A DNA stretch of 64,000 nt. Source: Epilithonimonas sp. JDS. GTDB taxonomy: Bacteria > Bacteroidota > Bacteroidia > Flavobacteriales > Weeksellaceae. Positions 46,868 through 56,374 of this stretch are shown one piece after another. The notes beneath the pieces were generated by a model. It did not search any database, was not told where the DNA came from, and was given only the letters and a program-made list of their open reading frames with translations. Positions within the stretch are counted from its first letter, which is position 1; each line of letters starts with the position of its first letter. The translations under genes were made by a program, and so were the position numbers. The DNA lies in contig NZ_JAJSAX010000001.1 of NCBI RefSeq assembly GCF_021261315.1, positions 682,001-746,000 of the forward strand, written 5' to 3'.

Positions 46868-47614
46868 TTAGACTATTGAATCAATTAATTCTTTTATAGC
46901 CGAAGCCTTCCACACAATTCAAATATCTGATTCGGGACTAATCCTTCCACTATAAATCCCAAGAAATTTTTCTGTTGGACCAGTGAGAAGACCTGTCCAA
47001 TTTCCTGCGTGAAGATTAAATCCCATTGACCTATATGCAATTACAGGTGAGCCAGATTGCCCCTTTCTACTTCTACAGTCTATTAAAAATTGTGGTAACC
47101 CATCATAATCGATATCAGGTTCTGACGCTATAAATCCTGAAGTCCATATTGCTAAAGATCCACCAGCGTTCCGACCGAAAGGAAATCCGATAACACTGAC
47201 AATGTCTGAGGGGAGATAATCCATCTGGAATTGATTGGTTGTTATATCGTATGGATAGATTTTCACATCATCAGATAAATTAGAAAGTAATTTTGCAACA
47301 AAATCAGCTCTTTCACCTAGGGTTGGATGCTCAATCCATTTAGGATTATAATCTTCAAGAATTATCTCACTTTTATCAACCCAATTTCCTATCGTAGTTT
47401 GATTATGTCTTATAATAATTTCATCAGGAATATAGCATTGCTGTGACAAATAATCACCCGTTACATTGTTTTTTCCGGTAACATTATGTCTATTAGTAAT
47501 TAAAGCAGGACCTTTTGCGGTATTAACCACAAACCCTGTTCCTGTGGAAATATTATTTCCCATCATTTTCATTTGGATAAAAAGGGATCTAAGCGATTGA
47601 ATTCGTATAGTCAT
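46868..47614 (-). pseudogene. Trypsin-like serine protease with in-frame stop near C-terminus
   Basis: A trypsin-fold protease of the stand-alone cytosolic type (no signal peptide). The triad is visible: His43 in LITNRHNV, Asp104 in GERADFVAK, Ser188 in RKGQSGSPVIAY; GTGFVV is the usual barrel start. Reading stops at TGA (46919-46921) after SPESDI, at 231 residues. The same frame continues without interruption for 16 more codons, IVWKASAIKELIDSIV, to TAA at 46868-46870; the continuation SDIxIVWK...I.EI resembles the normal end of this family. This suggests a nonsense mutation (for example GGA to TGA) or an exceptional read-through; the triad is intact, so the 231-residue form may still be active. 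It lies just outside the left boundary of the tRNA-Cys element. Confidence 0.6.
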
Positions 47615-47711
47615 TTGATAAAGATAGAAAAACTAATAAAATTATCGACGAACTTTTACTATGACATTTTTCAATTCTAAAATTATCGGGAAAATATCGG
47701 GAGACACAAGC

Positions 47712-47773
47712 AACAAAAAACCCTAAAACATTATAAATAAATGTATTAGGGTTAATCAGTAAGGTGCCTAGCG
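47712..47773 (+). repeat. Left attachment region (attL) with original tRNA terminator
   Basis: 62 bp that match 55934-55995 at 55 positions (89%). The last 12 bp, AGGTGCCTAGCG (47762-47773), are identical to the 3' end of tRNA-Cys in the right copy and form the likely crossover core; similarity stops sharply after it. The outer part contains ACCCTAA/TTAGGGT arms, the displaced terminator of the tRNA gene. Confidence 0.85.
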
Positions 47774-47891
47774 TACCCGACAAATGAGTTTTCTAGCATT
47801 TTCGTAAAACTTAAAAATACGCTCCAAACTCTTTATTAATGGGACTTAACAATAGTATGTAATTGCATAGCGTTTTACTAAATTTCAGAAC

Positions 47892-47937
47892 GGTTGGAAT
47901 TTGGTTGGAATTAATTCCAACGGATTTTGTATATTTG
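47892..47937 (+). promoter_or_regulatory. Integrase promoter overlapping arm-type repeats
   Basis: GGTTGGAATTT and GGTTGGAATTA lie in tandem (47892-47913) and run into AATTCCAAC, making the 18-bp palindrome GTTGGAATTAATTCCAAC. The same tandem pair recurs at 55906-55929 near the other end. TATATTTG at 47930-47937 is a perfect -7 element for the integrase gene; the repeats cover its -33 region, so a protein bound there (integrase itself is a candidate) could control int. Confidence 0.65.
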
Positions 47938-47957
47938 ATTGTTCAAAAATTTCAAAT

Positions 47958-49256
47958 ATGGCAACCGTTAAATTTCGGGTTTTACACAAAACCGAGAACG
48001 CTCAAATCTATATCCGTTTTTCAATAGACAGAGATAATGTTTTCCAAATCAAAACAGGGAAAATCATCAATCCGAAATACTGGAGCGTAAAAACATCCCG
48101 ACCTATCCAAACGCAACCAGAGTTCAAAATTCTTTACACAGAGCTGAACGAGTTGGAAACCTTTGTTTTGAAAGAATACAATTTCGATTATTCCAAAGGC
48201 GTTATTTTCTCAAAAGATTGGTTAGCTCAAAAGATTGATAAATTCTACAACCGCATCGAAGTCAAAGAAGATGATTCTGTTTTCCTCAATTATCTGCAAA
48301 ACTTCACAGATTTCAAACGCAGTACCGCATCCTACACAGAATCCACTTTAAAAAAGTACAACAATCTGAAAGACCGTTTCCAATCTTATCAAAAGAAGAA
48401 AAAGAAAACCTTTCTATTGCAGGATGTAAGTTCCAAAATCCTGATTGACTTCAAAAACTTTCTGATTGCAGAGTGCAGCCTGATGGAAACCACAGCCGTA
48501 AGATTTATTAAAAATCTGAAAACTGTTTTATTTGATGCTGAACAAAATGGAAAATCTATCCATTATTCGATTAGAGGATTCAGTACAGGAACGACCAACA
48601 CAGAGTACAAAGTATTTTTATCGTTTGATGAGATTGAGAAAATAAAAGACGTTACAACACTCAATACAGATTGGAACATTGCCCGAGATTGGTTGGTACT
48701 TGGATGCTATCTTGGGCAGAGAGTTTCTGACCTTTTGAGGATGAACAAACGGATGATTTACACCAAAACCGACAGTGAGGGAGACACATTCCGATTCATT
48801 GAGATTAAACAGCAGAAAACAGGGGAAAAAGTAGTGATACCAATCCACGATGAGGTGGAAACCCTTTTGCAGAAGTACAACGGAGATTTTCCGCCAATAC
48901 TTGCTGTTAATTTTGATTCTAATGCAGTACTGTTTAACCGCCACATCAAAAAGGTTTGCGAACTCGCAGGGATTGACGAAATGATAAAGGGCAAAGTGTA
49001 CAACGAGGACAAAAAGAAAAACGAAATTGAAGAAACGGAAAAATATAATTTGGTAAGTTCCCACGTTTGCAGACGTTCGTTTGCTACCAATTTCTACGGA
49101 AACAAAGAATTTACCACACCTCAACTTATGAGTATCACAGGACATAAAACAGAAAATATGTTTCTGAACTACATAGGACGAACCGCAGACGATTGGGCAA
49201 TGCAGACCGCAAAGACTTTCAAAAAACTATCAAACCAAAAAATAAAAATATCATAG
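47958..49256 (+). CDS. Tyrosine recombinase/integrase
   Basis: A 432-residue phage-type integrase. Residues 1-95 are an arm-binding domain (ATVKFRVLHKTENAQIYIRF, start of the Bacteroidota Arm-DNA-bind type), about 105-200 a SAM-like core-binding domain (FLNYLQNFTDFKRSTAS, KNLKTVLFDAEQNG), and 210-432 the catalytic domain with Arg254 in LGQRVSDLLRM, HVCRRSF (His369 and Arg372), the TGHKTENMFLNYIG His and the nucleophile Tyr near 405. All catalytic residues are present. Start at 47958 follows the consensus promoter; an in-frame ATG 57 bp upstream lies inside the arm repeats. It is the first gene inside attL. Confidence 0.93.
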   Translation: MATVKFRVLHKTENAQIYIRFSIDRDNVFQIKTGKIINPKYWSVKTSRPIQTQPEFKILYTELNELETFVLKEYNFDYSKGVIFSKDWLAQKIDKFYNRIEVKEDDSVFLNYLQNFTDFKRSTASYTESTLKKYNNLKDRFQSYQKKKKKTFLLQDVSSKILIDFKNFLIAECSLMETTAVRFIKNLKTVLFDAEQNGKSIHYSIRGFSTGTTNTEYKVFLSFDEIEKIKDVTTLNTDWNIARDWLVLGCYLGQRVSDLLRMNKRMIYTKTDSEGDTFRFIEIKQQKTGEKVVIPIHDEVETLLQKYNGDFPPILAVNFDSNAVLFNRHIKKVCELAGIDEMIKGKVYNEDKKKNEIEETEKYNLVSSHVCRRSFATNFYGNKEFTTPQLMSITGHKTENMFLNYIGRTADDWAMQTAKTFKKLSNQKIKIS

Positions 49257-50324
49257 ATGCAAAACTTCAACTTACCATATCTACCACCTAAAAAGGAAAT
49301 AGAAACGCCTGCAATCCTAAAACAATTATCAAAATCACACCGTTATTTGGCAGAGCTGAAAGGCACAGTTAAGACAATTCCAAACGAAAACATTCTGATA
49401 AACACGCTCACATTACAGGAAGCAAAAGACAGTAGCGAAATAGAGAATATAGTAACGACTCACGACGAACTTTATAAAGAGAATATTTTTATTGAGAGCA
49501 AAAACCCAGCTACAAAAGAAGTTTACAGTTATGCACAGAGTTTAAGATTAGGATTTGCAACCGTAAGGAAAGAAAAGCTACTACTCAACAAACATATTAT
49601 TGAGATACAAAGTACTTTAGAACATAACAACGCAGGATTCCGAACCCAGGCAGGCACTAAATTAGTCAATAATCTTGGACAGACCGTTTATATCCCACCG
49701 CAAGACAGCACCGAAGTTTTGAACCTAATGGCAAATCTTGAAAAATTCATTAATGATGATGAGTTTTCCGACCTAGACCCGTTGGTGAAAATGGCAATCA
49801 TACACTATCAGTTCGAGAGCATCCACCCATTTTATGATGGTAATGGCAGAACAGGCAGGATTATCAATATTTTGTATTTGGTATTGCAAGGACTTTTGGA
49901 TTTACCCGTATTGTATCTTAGCCGATATATTACACAAAACAAAACCCAATACTACACTGTTTTGCAAAACGTACGGGAAAATGATGATTGGGAAGGTATG
50001 ATTTTATATTTATTGAAAGGCGTAGAAGTTACCGCACAGCAAACCATTAATTTGGTAACTAATATTAAAAACCTGATGCAGGACACCAAAACCAAATTGC
50101 GTGCAGAATTGCCAAAGATATACAGCCAAGACCTCATTAATAATCTTTTCAAAAACCCTTACACCAAGATAGATTTTTTGCAAAACGACCTCAATGTATC
50201 CCGGCAAACAGCGTCTAATTATTTGGATGAGGTTGTAAACTTAGGTGTTCTGCAAAAGATTAAAGTGGGAAAATCTAACTATTATATCAATCCGAGTTTG
50301 ATAGATGCCCTCGCAAATGTATAG
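49257..50324 (+). CDS. Fic/DOC family protein with N-terminal inhibitory motif
   Basis: A 355-residue class II Fic enzyme. The AMP-transfer loop HPFYDGNGRTGR (residues 190-201) matches HxFx(D/E)GNGRxxR exactly. The autoinhibitory helix motif (S/T)xxxE(G/N) is SSEIEN at 59-64. The C-terminal 70 residues (NPYTKIDFLQNDLNVSRQTA; piece DFLQNDLNVSRQTASNYL) form a winged helix that may bind DNA. Such proteins add AMP or other phosphate groups to targets, and occur in bacterial mobile elements. The ATG follows the integrase stop with no spacing, so both share a transcript; a repeat array starts at its own stop codon. Confidence 0.9.
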   Translation: MQNFNLPYLPPKKEIETPAILKQLSKSHRYLAELKGTVKTIPNENILINTLTLQEAKDSSEIENIVTTHDELYKENIFIESKNPATKEVYSYAQSLRLGFATVRKEKLLLNKHIIEIQSTLEHNNAGFRTQAGTKLVNNLGQTVYIPPQDSTEVLNLMANLEKFINDDEFSDLDPLVKMAIIHYQFESIHPFYDGNGRTGRIINILYLVLQGLLDLPVLYLSRYITQNKTQYYTVLQNVRENDDWEGMILYLLKGVEVTAQQTINLVTNIKNLMQDTKTKLRAELPKIYSQDLINNLFKNPYTKIDFLQNDLNVSRQTASNYLDEVVNLGVLQKIKVGKSNYYINPSLIDALANV

Positions 50325-50468
50325 GTTAAGAAAATATCAAAACTCTAACACAAAAATAACAACGTGTTAAGAAAACAGCAAAATTTTAACACGACGACGA
50401 CGACGTGTTAAGAAAAAAGACATTTTGTATCAATGAAGATTACAATGTGTTAAGACAATATCAGAAAA
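50324..50468 (+). repeat. Iteron-like array, 41-bp spacing
   Basis: Four copies of (G)GTTAAGA.AA: TTAAG begins at 50326, 50367, 50408 and 50450, giving spacings of 41, 41 and 42 bp, close to four helical turns. Three are GTGTTAAG and each of the first two is followed by an inverted half, CTAACAC or TTTTAACAC. A CGACGACGACGACG triplet run (50391-50406) separates copies 2 and 3. The array fills the gap between fic and the next gene; iterons of an origin or operators of a regulator both fit. Confidence 0.7.
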
Positions 50469-50491
50469 TTAACCAGCTAAAAATTATAATT

Positions 50492-50842
50492 ATGGAAACA
50501 GAACAAATTCAAACAACCAACAAAAAAACAAGAAGCAAAACAGATTATTCCAGCTACATCGACAATCTGCCTTACGAAGCATTCATAATGCAAGTTTCCG
50601 CAATCAACAAAACAAAAGCTTCCGGAGAAGGAATCATCAACAAAGGTGGAGAGATTTCATTCAAAGTCAGTTGTGAAGTCGATTTGTGTTACACGGAAAA
50701 GGATGAAAAGTATGGATTTTCCATTTCAGGTTCCACAACCAATCTATTGCAGATTCTAAACCCTGCAGGCGCATCGATTCCATTCTCAAAGAAAGAAGAA
50801 CTCGTGATTACAAATTTCCTGAATGATAAGATTCTTTTTTGA
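50492..50842 (+). CDS. Hypothetical element protein
   Basis: A 116-residue protein not recognised as a known family. N-terminus is basic and polar (METEQIQTTNKKTRSKTDYS), then YEAFIMQVSAINKTKASGEG and a beta-rich region with two Cys (VSCEVDLCYTEKDEKYG). No signal peptide. The chosen ATG (50492) follows the repeat array; an earlier TTG/GTG frame from 50405 would run through the repeats and is less likely. It is followed, 35 bp later, by the frameshifted gene. Confidence 0.5.
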   Translation: METEQIQTTNKKTRSKTDYSSYIDNLPYEAFIMQVSAINKTKASGEGIINKGGEISFKVSCEVDLCYTEKDEKYGFSISGSTTNLLQILNPAGASIPFSKKEELVITNFLNDKILF

Positions 50843-50877
50843 CATCAAGAAGGACTTTTAAAAATAATCCTTTTCAA

Positions 50878-51542
50878 ATGGAAGATAAAATAAACAAAAT
50901 ACCAATAGAACTTGTAAGTCAAGCCCTATCAGAGTTTGAAGAAATACAAATATTAAATGATAAATCAATAGAAGTCAGTGGAATTGCTATCCCACTAAGT
51001 ACTGATTTGTTTGTTCTACATCTATATCATTTCTATACGATAAACAAAAAATATGGAGACTTAAAGTTTGATAAATTTTGTAAGTTGTTAATCGGTTTTT
51101 ACGGCTCTCTGCAAACCAAGGTATTATCTTCTTTGGTTGAGAACCCGAATATTTTTAAAGATAAAGACGATAATGGGTTTATGGATATCATAAATCTCAC
51201 TACCCTTTTAATAATTGAACTCAATCGTTATGAAGTACATCACGATATGACCATAACTAAGATTGATGAAATAAAACCAAAACAATTAAAGAAACCCGTT
51301 TATCCGCTCCGGAGAGGCTATTGGTATTAGAAAAAATAGGGTTTGATGAATTACCATTTGTGAAAAAATTAAACGATGGTGAAAAAAAAATCCTAATCTC
51401 AACAATTCTAAATTACGACAAGAGGTCTATTGATGGATACATAAATAACAGAAATGACAGTGGTAATGAATCAAAATATATTATAACCAATAAACACAAT
51501 GAAGAATCCGATAAATTTTTAAAACAATTCCACAAAGACTAA
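50878..51542 (+). pseudogene. Probable single gene split by a frameshift near 51290
   Basis: The first frame (50878-51330) gives MEDKINKIPIELVSQALSEF... and ends KKPVYPLRRGYWY. In the -1 frame the DNA reads on without stop from 51270: KETRLSAPERLLVLEKIGFD, then ILISTILNYDKRSIDGYI, to 51542. The second part has the ERLLxLxxLGFxDLPxxK and LIS.IL....R.xRxYINN pattern I recall as the normal C-terminal end of a protein family of Bacteroidota mobile elements, so one original gene is likely. A TTAAAGAAACCC stretch near 51286 is a possible slip or indel site. A terminator follows at 51561. If programmed, this would be a -1 shift; an ordinary indel is simpler. Confidence 0.55.
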
Positions 51543-51560
51543 TCTTAATACTGCATATAA

Positions 51561-51587
51561 AGCCACCTAATCCAGGTGGTTTTTTTA
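51561..51587 (+). terminator. Terminator inside the element
   Basis: AGCCACCT (51561-51568) and AGGTGGTT (51574-51581) pair with one G-U, loop AATCC, followed by TTTTTA. It ends the int-fic side of the element before the excisionase-like gene. Confidence 0.75.
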
Positions 51588-51736
51588 TACCCTTTTGGGA
51601 AAAATGGGAAAAGTTATGGGAAAAACACAGGGTGCAACCTATTGATATTTGTTGAGCAGTAAGCAAAAATGTATAAGCGCAGTGACGATACTACATTTGT
51701 CTTATTAGAACTCATAACAAGCAAAACAAATATAAA

Positions 51737-52021
51737 ATGACTAACATCCAGTTCATCGGAACAAACCCGACAGATTTAATCACAGCATTAGAAAACTCTC
51801 TCATTCCGAAACTTACGCCAAGCCTTGCCAAACAATTCCAACCCATCCAACCAACGGAATATCTCACACGCTCCGAAGTCTGTGAACTTCTTAAAATTGA
51901 CTTGAGCAGTTTACATCGTTGGCGCAAAGAAGGCAAGATGCCCAGCTACGGCGTTGGCAATCGTGTATACTTCAAACGCAATGAAGTGGAGCAGATTATT
52001 AACCAAAATAAGTTGAGTTAA
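51737..52021 (+). CDS. Excisionase-like helix-turn-helix protein
   Basis: A 94-residue protein whose C-terminal 50 residues form a winged HTH_17/MerR-type domain: YLTRSEVCELLKIDLSSLHRW, RWRKEGKMPSYGVGNRVYF and KRNEVEQII. This is the standard pattern of Bacteroidota element-encoded excisionase or replication-control proteins. The first 40 residues are a helical tail. It may direct integrase toward excision or regulate the next genes. The stop overlaps the start of the next gene by one base (TAATG), indicating coupling. Confidence 0.8.
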   Translation: MTNIQFIGTNPTDLITALENSLIPKLTPSLAKQFQPIQPTEYLTRSEVCELLKIDLSSLHRWRKEGKMPSYGVGNRVYFKRNEVEQIINQNKLS

Positions 52022-52236
52022 TGGATTCTGCATCACTATTACTTGACGAAATTCTGGAGAAGTATTTCACGAAGCAAGACACACTGAAAGACAACATTAA
52101 CATTTCTCTTCAAGAAATATCCCTGTATGAGTACAAACTTTTACAGACTGTTTTAAATGATGGAAATGACGCATTAACAGAAGCCATAGAATCATACATT
52201 GACGAACTAAAAAAGGAAGCCTTGAAAGCTTCCTAA
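52021..52236 (+). CDS. Small hypothetical element protein
   Basis: A 71-residue acidic, helical protein (LLLDEILEKYFTKQDTLKDN; piece YEYKLLQTVLNDGNDALTEAIE). No family recognised. Its start overlaps the stop of the HTH gene, and it precedes the replication-initiator-like gene by 53 bp, so it probably belongs to the same transcript. Confidence 0.5.
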   Translation: MDSASLLLDEILEKYFTKQDTLKDNINISLQEISLYEYKLLQTVLNDGNDALTEAIESYIDELKKEALKAS

Positions 52237-52289
52237 TTGTTCAAATATGTAACAGTGGCAACCATTACAATAACACAAATATAAGAATA

Positions 52290-53612
52290 ATGTTTGATTT
52301 ATTAAAAGTAAGAACCTATGAACAAGAGATAATCAACACGGTTTATGACAGCATAAAAAATGAATACAGAGTAACTAAAGATTTACCCTATTTAAAGGAA
52401 TATCAAAATAAAGGAATTACGATAGCCTTTCAAAAGCAGAATAATAGAGAATGTTTGTATGTAACATTCAGCCCTCATAAGCAGGTAAATGAAAATATTC
52501 ATAATGCTACCCCATTAGCATTGCAAGAAGCGCAGGATAACATCATCAGCACATTGGCTAATATTAAAATTGATAGAAATGATTTTTCGAAGTTTAAAAT
52601 TACCAGATTGGAGATTGGTGTAAACTACAAATGTGAATTACCATTGGATATTGTTTTCAAGTCTTTCCTTATGTTTCAGACAGCCTTATTCAAAACACAT
52701 AAGAATTACACGCATTATAAGTTTGCTGACTCGGGATATAGAAAGAACACATACAATAACTCAAGAAGTCCTTACCAAACCTTTAAACATTACATAAAAT
52801 CCGCACAAAGAGACCACAACGGAATTAGCAATGCGGATAACGGTTATTGTGATGATGAGGTTATGAGAACTGAGATAAAAACAGAACGTTCCGGAAAAGT
52901 CAAGGAAATAGGTTTTGACACACTTGCAGACCTATACAGAGACAACGCTCTGGAATGCTCAATCAATTTTCTAAAGAAAAACCTGGAAAAGGTATTTGTC
53001 TTTAACCCAAAAGAAATTGACAAAAAGAAATTAAAATCTGTTCCGATGCAGAAACATTTCTACCAAATGACGACTCCGAAATATTGGGAAAACATAAATG
53101 GTAAGAAACTTACGTCAGCTAAATCAAAATGGAATGAACTACCTAAGAGTTATGACACAAAAAACATTATCACCAACGCTATATTAGAAGCCATAAAAAC
53201 ACAAAACAATCCGGCGACTACCAAAAAAAACAGGGCGACTTTACACAAAGGAAAAACGACAGACAGAAAAACTGCGAATACTACTATTTATGGGAACTCA
53301 CAACAAAACAAGTATTATCACATTTCTCTTGATGTTGTAAACTCTCCTTATTTTTTCTGCACAGTAACCGGATTGGATATATCTATGCAACGTGAAGGAT
53401 TGAGACACCTTTATCAAAATAACAGAAGAAGATTCTATCAAATAAGGGACAGATTTATGCCAATAGAATTTACAAGCAAAACTTTGGAGGAACAAATCGT
53501 AAGAATAGAAAGTAACATCAGACATACTCACGACAATAAGGCATTATGCCAACGACTGATGCAGGAACGAAATTATCATCCAGCTCAGGCACAATTTAAT
53601 TTTCAATATTAA
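52290..53612 (+). CDS. Putative replication initiation protein (phage II/X-like)
   Basis: A 440-residue soluble basic protein. Segments FKITRLEIGVNYKCELPLD and EVMRTEIKTERSGKVKEIGF followed by DTLADLYRD resemble the order 'rLDig ... R.E.k.r ... tlaDL' of filamentous-phage gene II/X replication initiators and related small-plasmid Reps. A basic Asn/Lys-rich linker follows (TTKKNRATLHKGKTTDRKTA), then a C-terminal domain (YFFCTVTGLDISMQREGLRHL). Catalytic tyrosine and HUH residues cannot be placed securely, so the call is tentative. It is the largest gene of the element and lies in a coupled cluster with HTH proteins on both sides. Confidence 0.45.
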   Translation: MFDLLKVRTYEQEIINTVYDSIKNEYRVTKDLPYLKEYQNKGITIAFQKQNNRECLYVTFSPHKQVNENIHNATPLALQEAQDNIISTLANIKIDRNDFSKFKITRLEIGVNYKCELPLDIVFKSFLMFQTALFKTHKNYTHYKFADSGYRKNTYNNSRSPYQTFKHYIKSAQRDHNGISNADNGYCDDEVMRTEIKTERSGKVKEIGFDTLADLYRDNALECSINFLKKNLEKVFVFNPKEIDKKKLKSVPMQKHFYQMTTPKYWENINGKKLTSAKSKWNELPKSYDTKNIITNAILEAIKTQNNPATTKKNRATLHKGKTTDRKTANTTIYGNSQQNKYYHISLDVVNSPYFFCTVTGLDISMQREGLRHLYQNNRRRFYQIRDRFMPIEFTSKTLEEQIVRIESNIRHTHDNKALCQRLMQERNYHPAQAQFNFQY

Positions 53613-53614
53613 AA

Positions 53615-53902
53615 ATGAAACAGAACACCTACTCCACAAAAAAGATAGCAGACGAACTTGGACTGTCAGAAACTGAATTGATAGAAAAACTGCAACAAGA
53701 AAAAATCTTAGATGACTACGGATTCCCAACACCGCAGGCAATAGAATTGGGCTATGTTGTAAAACTGGATGACTTGAATTTTACTGTCAAAAAGATTCAG
53801 GAACAGCAAAGAAAAATTTCTAATGATGCCTTGGCAATAATACAAACCTTTCCACCGGTTGAAATAGATTACATACTTTCGCACTTACAATGTAAACAAT
53901 AA
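53615..53902 (+). CDS. Small HTH-like element protein
   Basis: A 95-residue protein beginning MKQNTYSTKKIADELGLSETELIEKL, which looks like a helix-turn-helix of the type found at the N-terminus of phage antirepressor/KilA-C proteins, followed by ILDDYGFPTPQAIELGYVV. The rest is helical. It begins 3 bp after the replication-initiator-like gene, hence co-transcribed. Convergent with the virion-like gene. Function unknown. Confidence 0.5.
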   Translation: MKQNTYSTKKIADELGLSETELIEKLQQEKILDDYGFPTPQAIELGYVVKLDDLNFTVKKIQEQQRKISNDALAIIQTFPPVEIDYILSHLQCKQ

Positions 53903-53918
53903 TTCTATCAATTAAATA

Positions 53919-54692
53919 TTATTTCAATCCTCCAAAATAGTTACCACCTAGACCCATAGCCCAAAATGGCGATTTATAAAAAGAGTTTTTGAAAACATTT
54001 ACATCCTTTTGTTGTGGGAAAACCGAGACTGAGTTTGGCAGTTTTTGACCTCCCAACACTCCGTTAATCTTCGTCACATCCGCACCTGGTAAAACTTGAC
54101 CTGTAATCTGTGCATCCTTAAAAGGATTGTCTCCACCACCGAAGAAGCCGTTACCGTTTTGCATAGATTCAAATCCTGCAGAAGCTACATTGGCAACTCC
54201 ACTTACAATCCCTCCAATCATTTGATTTTTGGCATTTGCAAATTCTGCATTAGCCAAATCAAGCTGAGTTCCTAATCCGGCTAAATCTGCATTCTCTCTT
54301 TGTTCCTGCATATCCTGAATCTTTAATTGTCCATTGGCTCTCATTTGGTCAATCTGCTTTTGTTGTTCATCGAGACTAGAAGCTATTTGCGCTTCCTGAG
54401 TATTCTGCTGAGTCATAAGACTTGGCAATAATCCTGCAATCGAACGGCTTCCTCCCATTGCTGCAAGATTTCCGTAAGTCGCCATTGTTCTGGCAATATC
54501 CTCACGTTGTCTGTCTGCGCCTAATGTAGAAACTTGCAAGCCGTTAGCTGGATTCACAAGGTCTTGGCGTTTGAAGCTATTAATGTCATTCCTTATTGTT
54601 TTTTTTTCTTTGTTGGCCTTAGCCATTTGTAACCCACTCATTCCGGTTGATACTGCCATTCCTATTAATGGCATTGCTACTGCTACTGGCAT
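53919..54692 (-). CDS. Phage virion/DNA-injection-like protein, putative
   Basis: The only reversed gene of the element; 257 residues. A hydrophobic, Gly/Ala/Met-rich N-terminus (VAVAMPLIGMAVSTGMSGLQ) and long helical segments with Gln repeats (ARTMATYGNLAAMGGSRSIA; QIASSLDEQQKQIDQMRANG) and a Gly-rich tail are the pattern of internal or DNA-pilot proteins from non-tailed Bacteroidota phages, as I recall them. No capsid or packaging gene accompanies it. An unrelated cargo protein with similar composition cannot be excluded. The 314-bp region upstream (54693-55006) is AT-rich with no other gene I can support. Confidence 0.4.
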   Translation of the reverse strand: MPVAVAMPLIGMAVSTGMSGLQMAKANKEKKTIRNDINSFKRQDLVNPANGLQVSTLGADRQREDIARTMATYGNLAAMGGSRSIAGLLPSLMTQQNTQEAQIASSLDEQQKQIDQMRANGQLKIQDMQEQRENADLAGLGTQLDLANAEFANAKNQMIGGIVSGVANVASAGFESMQNGNGFFGGGDNPFKDAQITGQVLPGADVTKINGVLGGQKLPNSVSVFPQQKDVNVFKNSFYKSPFWAMGLGGNYFGGLK

Positions 54693-55006
54693 TATTAATT
54701 TATTCTACTTGTTATGCTATAAAGATAATATTCAACACCCCTTTTCGTCATCTTACTTAAAATCACAATCCCCTTTTGAAAGTGCAAGAAAGTACAGGAA
54801 AAATGATAAAGAAAGGTAAGATTAGATTGCTCGCACTTGACGGTCTAACAAATCGAGTTTGAAATTCCAAAACATTTTTGCAAAAACAAGAAGTTGGGTA
54901 TCAAAAAAACCACACAGATTTTGCCATTTTTTAGACTGTAATTTATTCCTATCTAAACTTCTTATCTCTTACTAAGATTTTTGTAGATTTGAGAAAACTA
55001 ATTACT

Positions 55007-55625
55007 ATGAAATATCTCTATTTAACCGCAATATTTGTTAGCATACTTACATATTCGCAGAAAAGTAACAATTTAGTTAAGGTCAGTACAAACTCTTGGA
55101 AATTCTCAAGGAATCAATTTAGACATTTACTATCCATTAGGGTGGGAAATTTCTACAGCAAAAAGACCTCACATTTTATTTAATGCAAAAAATGAAAACC
55201 TCAACATCTACTCTACATTGTCAATCAATGATATTTTAGAGAATGCTCCAGAAAATGTTAAAAAATCATTTAAAGAATTAGGGGCTATTGAAACTCAAAA
55301 TATTATATTCAGCACTCTGCCAAATAAAGACAATTGTAAATCATACGATTTTAATCAGGGAATGGAAAATACTTCCGAGCCTGTTTGTTCATCAACGAAA
55401 ATAGAAGGCTTACAAACATCAATTTCTTCTTTTTACGGGGATTCTGAAAGAGCAGGATATGTTATAAAGAGTTACATGATTATTTATCAGATTTTATACA
55501 AAACTAAGACAATAATTATTACTTTTAATTTTACAGATAGTGATAAGTCTCTGAGACAATCTTCAGATATACTAGCGAAACAAATACTGAACACAGTTGT
55601 TTTTAAAAATTTGTATACAAAATAA
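55007..55625 (+). pseudogene. Frameshifted secreted-protein gene
   Basis: The first frame gives a signal peptide, MKYLYLTAIFVSILTYSQ, then SNNLVKVSTNSWKF and stops at 55183. From about 55098 the +1 frame is open and sensible: GNSQGINLDIYYPLGWEIS, HILFNAKNENLNIYSTLS and so on to TAA at 55625. The two parts join naturally near TCTTGGAAATTCTC (55094-55107), so a one-base indel in the A run probably broke a 200-residue secreted protein. The second part has two Cys and ends with strand-rich sequence. A -7 element TAGATTTG lies at 54984-54991. Family unknown. Last gene before attR. Confidence 0.6.
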
Positions 55626-55905
55626 AAAAATCTTCTATAACACTGATATACAAACTAAACACAATTATAATAGAATACGCTAAACAACAAATATTACAAC
55701 GAAATTCATCTCTAAATATAATAGAATAGTTCTTTTTATATAATTCTTAATCATCTCTATTTAATAAAAAATCAAACAATTGTTTAATATTATTAAGCTT
55801 TTGAACTAGTTGAAACTCACTAAGTGTATTCCAAATTATATTTAGAGATCTATTTCGGCATTTTCAGAGTTCAATAAAAGTAATAAAATGATACTTTTTT
55901 GAAAT

Positions 55906-55929
55906 GGTTGGAATTTGGTTGGAATTAAT
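55906..55929 (+). repeat. Right arm-type repeat, copy of 47892-47915
   Basis: A 24-bp segment identical to 47892-47915, made of two tandem copies of GGTTGGAATT(T/A). It lies 55 bp inside the right core repeat, while the left one lies 118 bp inside the left core. Placement at both ends fits arm-type integrase binding sites. The rest of 55626-55905 is AT-rich and shows no gene. Confidence 0.65.
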
Positions 55930-55933
55930 GAGA

Positions 55934-55995
55934 AACAAAAAACCCTAAAACATTGTTAATAAATGAATTAGGGTTTACTAGTGAGGTGCCTAGCG
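55934..55995 (-). repeat. Right attachment region (attR) with element-borne tRNA terminator
   Basis: 89% identical to 47712-47773. Read on the tRNA strand it gives the 3' end of tRNA-Cys, then AAACCCTAA ... TTAGGGTTTTTTG, a terminator hairpin with T run. Because the crossover lies to the tRNA side of it, this copy arrived with the element and replaces the displaced one. Confidence 0.8.
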
Positions 55996-56054
55996 GATTC
56001 GAACCGCTGTAGATGGTGTTGCAGACCACTGCCTAGCCGCTCGGCCAAAGCACC
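55984..56054 (-). tRNA. tRNA-Cys (GCA)
   Basis: A 71-nt cloverleaf on the minus strand. Acceptor GGTGCTT/AGGCACC pairs with one T-G; the D arm is GCCGAGCGGCTAGGC; the anticodon loop CTGCAAC holds GCA (cysteine); the T arm is AGCGG-TTCGAAT-CCGCT. The discriminator is U73, expected for tRNA-Cys. CCA is not encoded. Its 3' end is the attachment core of the integrated element, and the gene is left intact by integration. Confidence 0.95.
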
Positions 56055-56162
56055 GTTTTCTTGGATTGCAAATTTAGTGTTTTTTTTCAAATTTCAAATT
56101 TTATCGGCTTTTAATTTGAAAAAATATTTCTAAAACTGTGTAAAATGTTGATTTGAAGACCA

Positions 56163-56286
56163 ATCCCCTAGCCCTGATGGAAACGGCTATCCTTTTTGTT
56201 TTTTTTTGCAGAAGTTTTGTTTTGATAACCAATCATTCTGAAAAAACAAAAAGATAATAGTGGACAGCAGGTTCCCGGCTCCTAAA
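56163..56286 (+). ncRNA. Flavo-1-like structured RNA, second subtype
   Basis: Between tRNA-Cys and ribBA. Left half CCCCTAGCCCTGATGG, AAACGGCTATCCTTTTTG then a T run; right half AAAAAACAAAAAGATAATAG, GTGGACAGCAGG and CCCGGCTCC. The long stem TATCCTTTTTGTTTTTT/AAAAAACAAAAAGATA pairs with one bulge; CAGAA/TTCTG closes an inner hairpin. This matches my memory of the classic Flavo-1 motif. It shares the order AGCCC..GA, A.CGG, ATCCTTTTT, AAAAAGAT with the three copies elsewhere in the window. No FMN riboswitch features (for example AGGGGCGAAATCCCC) are seen upstream of ribBA. Confidence 0.6.
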
Positions 56287-56374
56287 AATATACACGTTCT
56301 ACATATCTTTAATCGATTTTTACAATCTTTATTTAGGTTCTAAATAAGTATCTTTGCAAAAAAATTTTAGAACA

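Follow-up and report, generated by a model that had tools for sequence, protein, structure and literature searches.

The 64,000-nucleotide stretch of Epilithonimonas sp. JDS DNA analysed here (hereafter the window) carries at its tRNA-Cys an integrase-bearing element of 8.2 kb, which belongs to a widespread Flavobacteriales family of elements with the genes int, cargo, xis and rep. The element also carries a gene, vir, whose relatives are proteins of tailed double-stranded DNA (dsDNA) podoviruses, and a homologous gene was found in a second element, from Kaistella, with a separate position in the protein tree. That the element is a member of a satellite-like family with the repeated capture of virion genes from helper phages is a reading to which we give a probability of about 0.5.

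Capture of podovirus virion genes

The Vir protein matches significantly PHROG 13764, a family of virion structural proteins (E 4.2e-19), and 86 phage records, all of them from phages of Flavobacterium, Cellulophaga, Tenacibaculum or Maribacter, every one below 60% identity and none reaching 80% coverage; its homologues are a structural protein of dsDNA podoviruses, such as the elemoviruses, Cellulophaga phi38:1 and others. The closest relative found is in the IMG/VR phage contig L075 of 80.9 kb (69% over 210 aa). The window vir is intact, and its pair with L075 shows a nonsynonymous divergence (dN) of 0.25 and a synonymous divergence (dS) of 1.4, a sign of constraint, although the dS approaches saturation and the phage may account for a large share of the divergence.

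Within the taxonomic family vir was found in three of the 320 genomes, namely in the window element, the Kaistella element and the phage contig L012, and among 395 sampled genomes of the order in two, which are again the window and Kaistella elements. The pattern scan of genome contigs, from which the window's genome was possibly left out, gave three vir loci, two of which are those of the phage contig and the Kaistella element; in the third, on an Allomuricauda contig, vir stands in a phage context. The Kaistella element, located in the metagenome-assembled genome contig JAIBEW010000003.1, has int, HTH (helix-turn-helix) genes, o7, vir and rep on one strand. Here vir shares 22 bp with o7 and 4 bp with rep and should therefore be co-expressed with replication; in the window vir is located behind rep on the opposite strand. 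In a tree of 20 proteins, the window Vir groups with that of L075 (support 98/98) and the Kaistella Vir with that of L043 (97/94), while a single clade of both element copies was rejected (log-likelihood difference 53.5, approximately unbiased test p-AU 1.2e-10). The vir genes were therefore acquired separately, unless phages took both of them from elements.

Directly behind vir, 20 of the 22 phage loci, near-copies of one another included, have an open reading frame (ORF) of 449-570 aa, the other two ending at the contig edge, and in 17 of these 20 the next ORF is longer than 1,000 aa. This trio of a small, a medium and a giant gene, which is reminiscent of the internal virion proteins of T7, is taken here as a set of ejection proteins, with Vir homologous to the small first member; the fold search gave no significant support for the likeness to T7. 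The predicted structure of Vir is essentially helical (mean predicted local distance difference test score, pLDDT, 55.6), its best match in BFVD being the structural protein of phi13:2 (E 6.3e-5), and the entries named 'internal virion protein' in that database were matched non-significantly and serve as a lead only.

A virion gene of another type was found in the family element L113 (G282), in which a 624-aa tail protein (phrog_33803, E 1.6e-113) is encoded between 15-nt repeats 8,059 bp apart; it is 35% identical over 98% to a protein of Flavobacterium phage 11b and 33% to that of phi10:1, and no relative of it was found in IMG/VR. Other phage-type genes include an AlpA domain above the cut-off in the Kaistella element, an antirepressor together with a weak TerS-like protein in L018, an antirepressor in L112, and the C-terminal half of a GH19-type endolysin in L121, the assignment to L121 being made partly by inspection. 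In the latter, a core-bounded element of 11.7 kb, a 658-aa tail-fibre-like protein is followed by one ORF on the opposite strand and then by the endolysin half (L121:6188-9184), and the whole looks like an acquired piece of a phage late region. This protein and another of 665 aa in L116 were considered as tail fibres on a likeness by eye; since no search supports them, they were not counted as virion genes.

Integration at tRNA-Cys

A unit of 8,222 bp lies between two 12-bp cores (AGGTGCCTAGCG), which have exactly two copies in the window; with up to one mismatch allowed, the search still returned the same two sites, with 0.04 expected by chance. The tRNA-Cys (GCA) called by ARAGORN lies on the minus strand, so that the right core forms the 3' end of this gene. 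Both cores lie in a longer and imperfect duplication (47709-47780 and 55931-56002; 72 nt, 85% identity, spacing 8222), of which they form the conserved stretch and which takes in a terminator-like palindrome behind the tRNA-Cys. The integrase adjoining the left core matches Phage_integrase above the cut-off, with the catalytic R, HxxR, H and Y motifs recognised by inspection, and the excisionase-like HTH gene inside the element exceeds the cut-offs of both HTH_17 and TIGR01764. An earlier note on this DNA had already placed the two cores, the integrase and the excisionase-like gene in the same way, and its proposal of an integrated element is borne out by the cores, the arm sites, the integrase and the single-core loci of relatives. 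The arm-type site GGTTGGAATTTGGTTGGAATTAAT, a double repeat and putative binding site of the integrase, is repeated exactly near both ends. In a search that allowed three mismatches at most and reached as far as 16 kb behind the tRNA, 22 nt of this site were present at both ends in four of the four occupied tRNA-Cys loci of the genus and were found in none of the 18 single-core loci.

For the empty site, which the earlier note had proposed to look for in close relatives, 23 genomes of the genus including that of the window were searched and 22 tRNA-Cys loci were read, the genome G001 (73% complete) being left out as giving no tRNA-Cys match. Int-xis-rep elements occupy four of the 22 loci (the window, G003, G018 and G019), with the integrases of the latter three 94-97% identical to that of the window, and the remaining 18 loci have a single core. 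In three of these 18 (G013, G015 and G021) the left neighbour gene of the window is found 1.4-3.9 kb from the tRNA-Cys, and for the other 15 the evidence is the single core, not synteny. The marks of a tRNA-integrated element are thus all present, i.e., end repeats of which one completes the tRNA, an integrase within and empty sites in relatives.

An arm-type motif of another integrase type, TTATCGGGAAAATATCGGGA, lies 71 bp beyond the left core in the window and in G003, and it was not found there in G018 or G019; the motif occurs in the arm repeats of the tRNA-Cys elements L096, L099 and L121, and its position outside the left core may be what is left of an earlier element that used this tRNA. 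Just beyond the left core there is also a gene of a trypsin-like protease with the Trypsin_2 domain (46919-47614), which may be relic cargo of an older tRNA-Cys element.

The int-xis-rep family in Flavobacteriales

The profile of the seven first Rep proteins gave matches in 96 of the 320 genomes of the taxonomic family, 74 of them at E < 1e-6; the other 22 matches are weak (best E > 1e-6), several spanning only part of the profile. They may represent a different protein, and without them 74 of the 320 genomes remain. The profile of 46 Rep proteins gave matches in 51 of 395 genomes of the order, spread over several families. The 48 loci read comprise the window, the seven first matches and 40 of the better-scoring matches of the seven-Rep profile, and are thus a selection by score, not a random one, with the weak matches left unread. 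In 43 of them, the window among them, int, xis and rep follow in that order on one strand; the profiles did not give this order in L042, L107, L111, L126 and L133, of which L042 has HTH genes seen by inspection and through an AlpA match. The elements span 5-12 kb where borders were found, and the tRNA-Cys members 5.1-11.7 kb between cores, a second core with at most one mismatch being present in ten of the 11 further tRNA-Cys loci, that is in all except L094.

Several observations were made in passing on single members. The integrase of L018 is in two parts (L018:5031-7323), apparently split by a transposase-like ORF, recognised as such by inspection. The IMG/VR contig L134 (1-12376) has an int-xis-rep element at its start and then phage genes of repressor and recombination types (by inspection), i.e., an element and a prophage side by side. 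A protein of ~195-199 aa recurs, mostly behind rep, in L016 (8044-8637), L017 (8003-8596), L097, L098, L104, L113, L115, L127 and L134, with 44-82% identity to the L016 copy across the eight other loci, and the L016 copy has no Pfam or PHROG match.

The Rep protein evolves fast (22-49% identity to that of the window among the first seven), with D3, N67, N72, E108, K166xY168xK170 and R193xE195 invariant across 46 members. Two of the 46 match Rep_trans (PF02486) at E <=0.01, the best of them at 9e-5 and below the cut-off, and the window's Rep is not one of the two; in 120 genomes the same model gave no match above the Pfam cut-off and three below it. A relation to the Rep_trans initiators is suggested below the cut-off, and the label of a Rep-like protein given in the earlier note is right, although weakly backed by the family models. 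The Reps of the window and of L016 have no match in 50,697 phage records, and against plasmids neither the L016 Rep (tblastn) nor the element DNA gave a match. The AlphaFold model of Rep, made with three sequences, reached a pLDDT of 47.6 and its PDB fold search yielded nothing usable; the profiles of Rep and Vir gave nothing significant against the PDB sequences.

Gene content of the window element and cargo of the family

The features are collected in Table 1. The fic product scores 387.6 bits against NF046030, under its cut-off of 550. The GTTAAGA repeats behind fic are possible candidates for iterons, regulator sites or operator sites. The two ORFs that follow the small 116-aa gene are probably one frameshifted gene (by inspection), and in this position, between int and xis, many members of the family have a gene of ~210-380 aa. 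In the second frameshifted-looking gene, the ORF 55218-55622 has no Pfam match. The apparent shift in both of these genes, on which the earlier note is silent, may be a mutation, an assembly error or a programmed shift. On the other side of the tRNA-Cys, before ribB, there is a dispersed intergenic repeat of ~150 bp (56137-56292); an 818-base query gave at least 20 matches in its own genome, of which, among the matches listed, those off the locus fall on this repeat, and resembling repeats are present in other genomes of the genus, likewise among the matches listed.

Table 1. Features of the 8.2-kb element and its borders (window positions)
Feature	Position	Strand	Basis
Arm-type site TTATCGGGAAAATATCGGGA of another int type, outside the element	47683-47702	+	71 bp outboard of left core
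Left core, forming the outer border; duplicate of the 3' end of tRNA-Cys	47762-47773		exact 12-mer; inside 72-nt 85% repeat
Left arm-type site GGTTGGAATTTGGTTGGAATTAAT, putatively bound by the integrase	47892-47915	+	24-nt exact repeat of 55906-55929
int, tyrosine integrase, 432 aa from ATG 47958 (ORF open from TTG 47901)	47958-49256	+	Pfam Phage_integrase 33.2 bits, cut-off 27.1
fic, cargo gene for a SoFic-like protein adenylyltransferase	49257-50324	+	Pfam Fic, Fic_N and SoFic-like_C, all above cut-off
GTTAAGA direct repeats, 41-42-bp spacing, between fic and next gene	50325-50473		repeat search
Small protein, 116 aa	50492-50842	+	no match in Pfam, PHROGs or NCBIfam at E 0.1
Two overlapping ORFs (163 + 73 aa)	50839-51542	+	ORF list; frameshift by inspection
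xis/AlpA-like HTH	51737-52021	+	HTH_17 51.4 bits, cut-off 27; TIGR01764 33.6 bits, cut-off 28.8
o7, small partner gene	52021-52236	+	homologues adjoin rep in L013, L105, L120 and vir-rep in L042
rep, putative rolling-circle initiator, 440 aa	52290-53612	+	seven-Rep profile; invariant residues in 46 members
Small HTH/KilAC-like protein	53615-53902	+	PF03374 ANT E 0.002, below cut-off
vir, virion structural protein (257 aa) captured from a podovirus	53919-54692	-	PHROG 13764; 86 phage records
Secreted-protein-like gene as two ORFs, apparently frameshifted	54989-55625	+	ORF list, by inspection
Right arm-type site GGTTGGAATTTGGTTGGAATTAAT	55906-55929	+	24-nt exact repeat of 47892-47915
Right core, within tRNA-Cys	55984-55995		exact 12-mer; ARAGORN tRNA call
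tRNA-Cys (GCA), integration target	55983-56054	-	ARAGORN

Ten window proteins were compared with Pfam, PHROGs and NCBIfam, and among them no conjugation gene, no TerS, Sid, Psu, Delta or primase, and no capsid or coat gene of single-stranded DNA (ssDNA) phages was recognised. The earlier description of the element as free of conjugation and tailed-phage genes is supported within this scope, with only one phage structural gene recognised.

The cargo survey comprised 119 proteins, i.e., 117 of the 163 from elements with borders and two genes of L104, for which borders were not found; of the 46 left out, 38 were mostly near-copies or small ORFs and eight came from L095, L103 and L108. The results cover the best 25 of 59 and the best 25 of 28 PHROG families, the best 25 of 174 PADLOC families and the best 25 of 30 Pfam families, and more genes may be present. 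Within this scope PADLOC gave four SoFic proteins, two type I methyltransferases, one type IIG restriction-modification (RM) enzyme and a single specificity subunit, and Pfam gave three AntA antirepressors, one AbiTii and one HigB. Known satellites have a similarly defence-rich cargo, but so does any defence island.

Comparison with known systems

The closest known system in its working would be the phage-inducible chromosomal minimalist islands (PICMIs) of Vibrionaceae, the plan being shared and the site and the replication gene not. PICMIs are described as elements of ~6 kb integrated next to fis, with an int-alpA-prim core of integrase, AlpA and one replication gene (PMC10803314); they are packed as concatemers in the particles of virulent phages, guard against other phages and, by the description available, have no capsid-remodelling genes (PMC10803314). 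Judged by that description, the small size and the combination of an integrase, an AlpA-type regulator and a single replication gene are common to both. However, the present family targets tRNA-Cys and other sites instead of fis and has a Rep-family protein instead of a primase; in the window element itself the site is tRNA-Cys and no primase was recognised among the ten proteins. The window also carries a helper-type virion gene, met in no PICMI description available here. Thus, what the present family adds to the PICMI-like plan is a captured virion gene, found twice.

Phage-inducible chromosomal islands (PICIs) are recognised by an AlpA or Stl regulator, pri-rep and the redirection of packaging by TerS or Ppi, and P4-like satellites by homologues of psu, delta, sid and the alpha primase. 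The present elements share with both the size range, an integrase beside the attachment site, an AlpA-type HTH, antirepressors in some members and the defence cargo, with the qualification that the AlpA model itself is above the cut-off in the Kaistella element only. As to PICI features, the window has an AlpA-type HTH and no recognised primase, and TerS-like matches are weak and confined to L018 and L110; as to P4-like ones, the window proteins gave no match to psu, delta, sid or the alpha primase in the three databases. The window element thus differs from both by the lack of matches to TerS, Sid, Psu, Delta and primase, by the lack of packaging evidence and by its phylum.

Charybdis elements of marine archaea are reported to be small and integrative, some with homologues of tailed-phage tail parts and none with a full virion set in the description available (PMC12324425). 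By that description they are alike in being small integrative elements with tail or virion-part homologues, but differ in their size of ~4.6 kb, in the host and in having no recognised replication gene. Integrative mobilisable elements of the MOBT type are similar in the combination of an integrase and a Rep_trans-related initiator; in the window family, however, the Rep_trans match is below the cut-off, and an oriT or an HTH-Rep fusion is hypothetical. The elemoviruses and the podoviruses of the Cellulophaga phi38:1 and phi13:2 type, which are the source family of vir, are phages of ~60-79 kb, and vir was the only gene found in common with them by blastp over the stretches of the 22 phage loci.

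Proposed mechanism and alternatives

The presence of a podovirus-derived particle gene suggests that the element is carried along by such viruses or disrupts their assembly. On infection by a podovirus, int and the xis/AlpA-type gene would excise the element as a circle, which Rep would amplify by the rolling-circle mode; the concatemer would then be packaged by the helper particles, in the manner reported for PICMIs, while Vir would become part of the particle or act as a competitor of the copy made by the helper, and the host would be shielded from rival phages by Fic and other cargo. Vir may serve the element's own delivery or harm the phage. A wider proposal, that phage satellites of Flavobacteriales independently steal single virion genes from their helpers (ejection-type twice, tail once) and express them with the replication operon, rebuilding part of the helper particle for their own delivery or against the helper, is put forward tentatively and as doubtful. 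The suggestion of a satellite made in the earlier note remains the best-supported mechanism, short of a demonstration.

Several points weigh against a satellite family with repeated virion-gene capture. Its excision, replication and packaging are predictions from the sequence. The vir gene is present in only two of the 48 loci and a tail protein was recognised in one, the depth of the virion-gene search being uneven among the rest, and for the Kaistella element no borders could be located. The TerS-like matches are weak (L018 and L110; E 9e-4 and 1.8e-3). Between the window element and the phage loci the DNA similarity is confined to the vir coding region, and the Kaistella element has a single match outside it, 63 bp shared with L089/L090, which is a terminator-like hairpin; as the similarity ends with the coding region, no captured packaging site is seen. 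The Rep is weakly tied to Rep_trans, whose kin also act as MOBT relaxases, and its scans of IMG/VR returned no contig or, in one scan, one. Finally, two genes of the window element look frameshifted, so that this copy may be ageing.

The first alternative is an integrative mobilisable element, in which a MOBT-like Rep nicks an oriT, the circle uses a resident conjugative element, and vir and other phage genes are passive cargo. The invariant KxYxK and RxE motifs and the sub-threshold Rep_trans matches would fit such a role, MOBT relaxases being described as related to the Rep_trans initiators (PMC11389934), and the window element, with no conjugation gene recognised among its ten proteins, would depend on another element for transfer. 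However, two separate captures of one virion gene family would remain unexplained, as would the position of vir inside the Kaistella rep operon, and the plasmid search with the L016 Rep came back empty; we regard this alternative as rather unlikely.

An anti-phage island, carrying defence genes and using Vir as a decoy or dominant-negative virion protein that spoils podovirus assembly or DNA ejection, is likewise an unlikely account of the whole, although compatible with the satellite reading, because satellites also interfere with phages. It is in accord with the defence-rich cargo (at least the four SoFic, two type I methyltransferase, one type IIG RM and one AbiTii proteins of the 119), with the occurrence of tail and virion genes singly, and with the known interference of phage and satellite genes with tail assembly, as by Tai (PMC11364771). 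However, the account available does not present Tai as a homologue of virion proteins (PMC11364771), and the coupling of vir to rep in Kaistella is left unexplained.

A tailed prophage of which only int, xis, rep and a single virion gene remain, a reading favoured by the two frameshifted genes (by inspection) and the endolysin fragment of L121, is very improbable in view of the compact int-xis-rep order recurring in 43 of the 48 loci and of the two Reps without a match in the 50,697 phage records. An ssDNA-type prophage of the microvirus or inovirus kind, the other lineage proposed in the earlier note and one in keeping with a small size and a putative rolling-circle Rep, is hardly tenable, since the virion-like protein is homologous to proteins of Caudoviricetes podoviruses and the ten window proteins include no recognised ssDNA-phage capsid or coat gene.

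Significance

Most of the known phage satellites come from Proteobacteria, Firmicutes and Actinobacteria. In the open-licence literature, judged mostly by titles and the beginnings of abstracts, no description of phage satellites in Flavobacteriales or of the present family was found. A satellite-like family with a Rep match in about a quarter to a third of the sampled genomes of the taxonomic family (74 strong and 96 in all, of 320) would fill a gap in the distribution of satellites. That one ejection-type virion gene was captured more than once would offer a direct and testable handle on how such a small element manipulates a large podovirus and, in addition, on the function of the small protein in the small-medium-giant trio of these phages.

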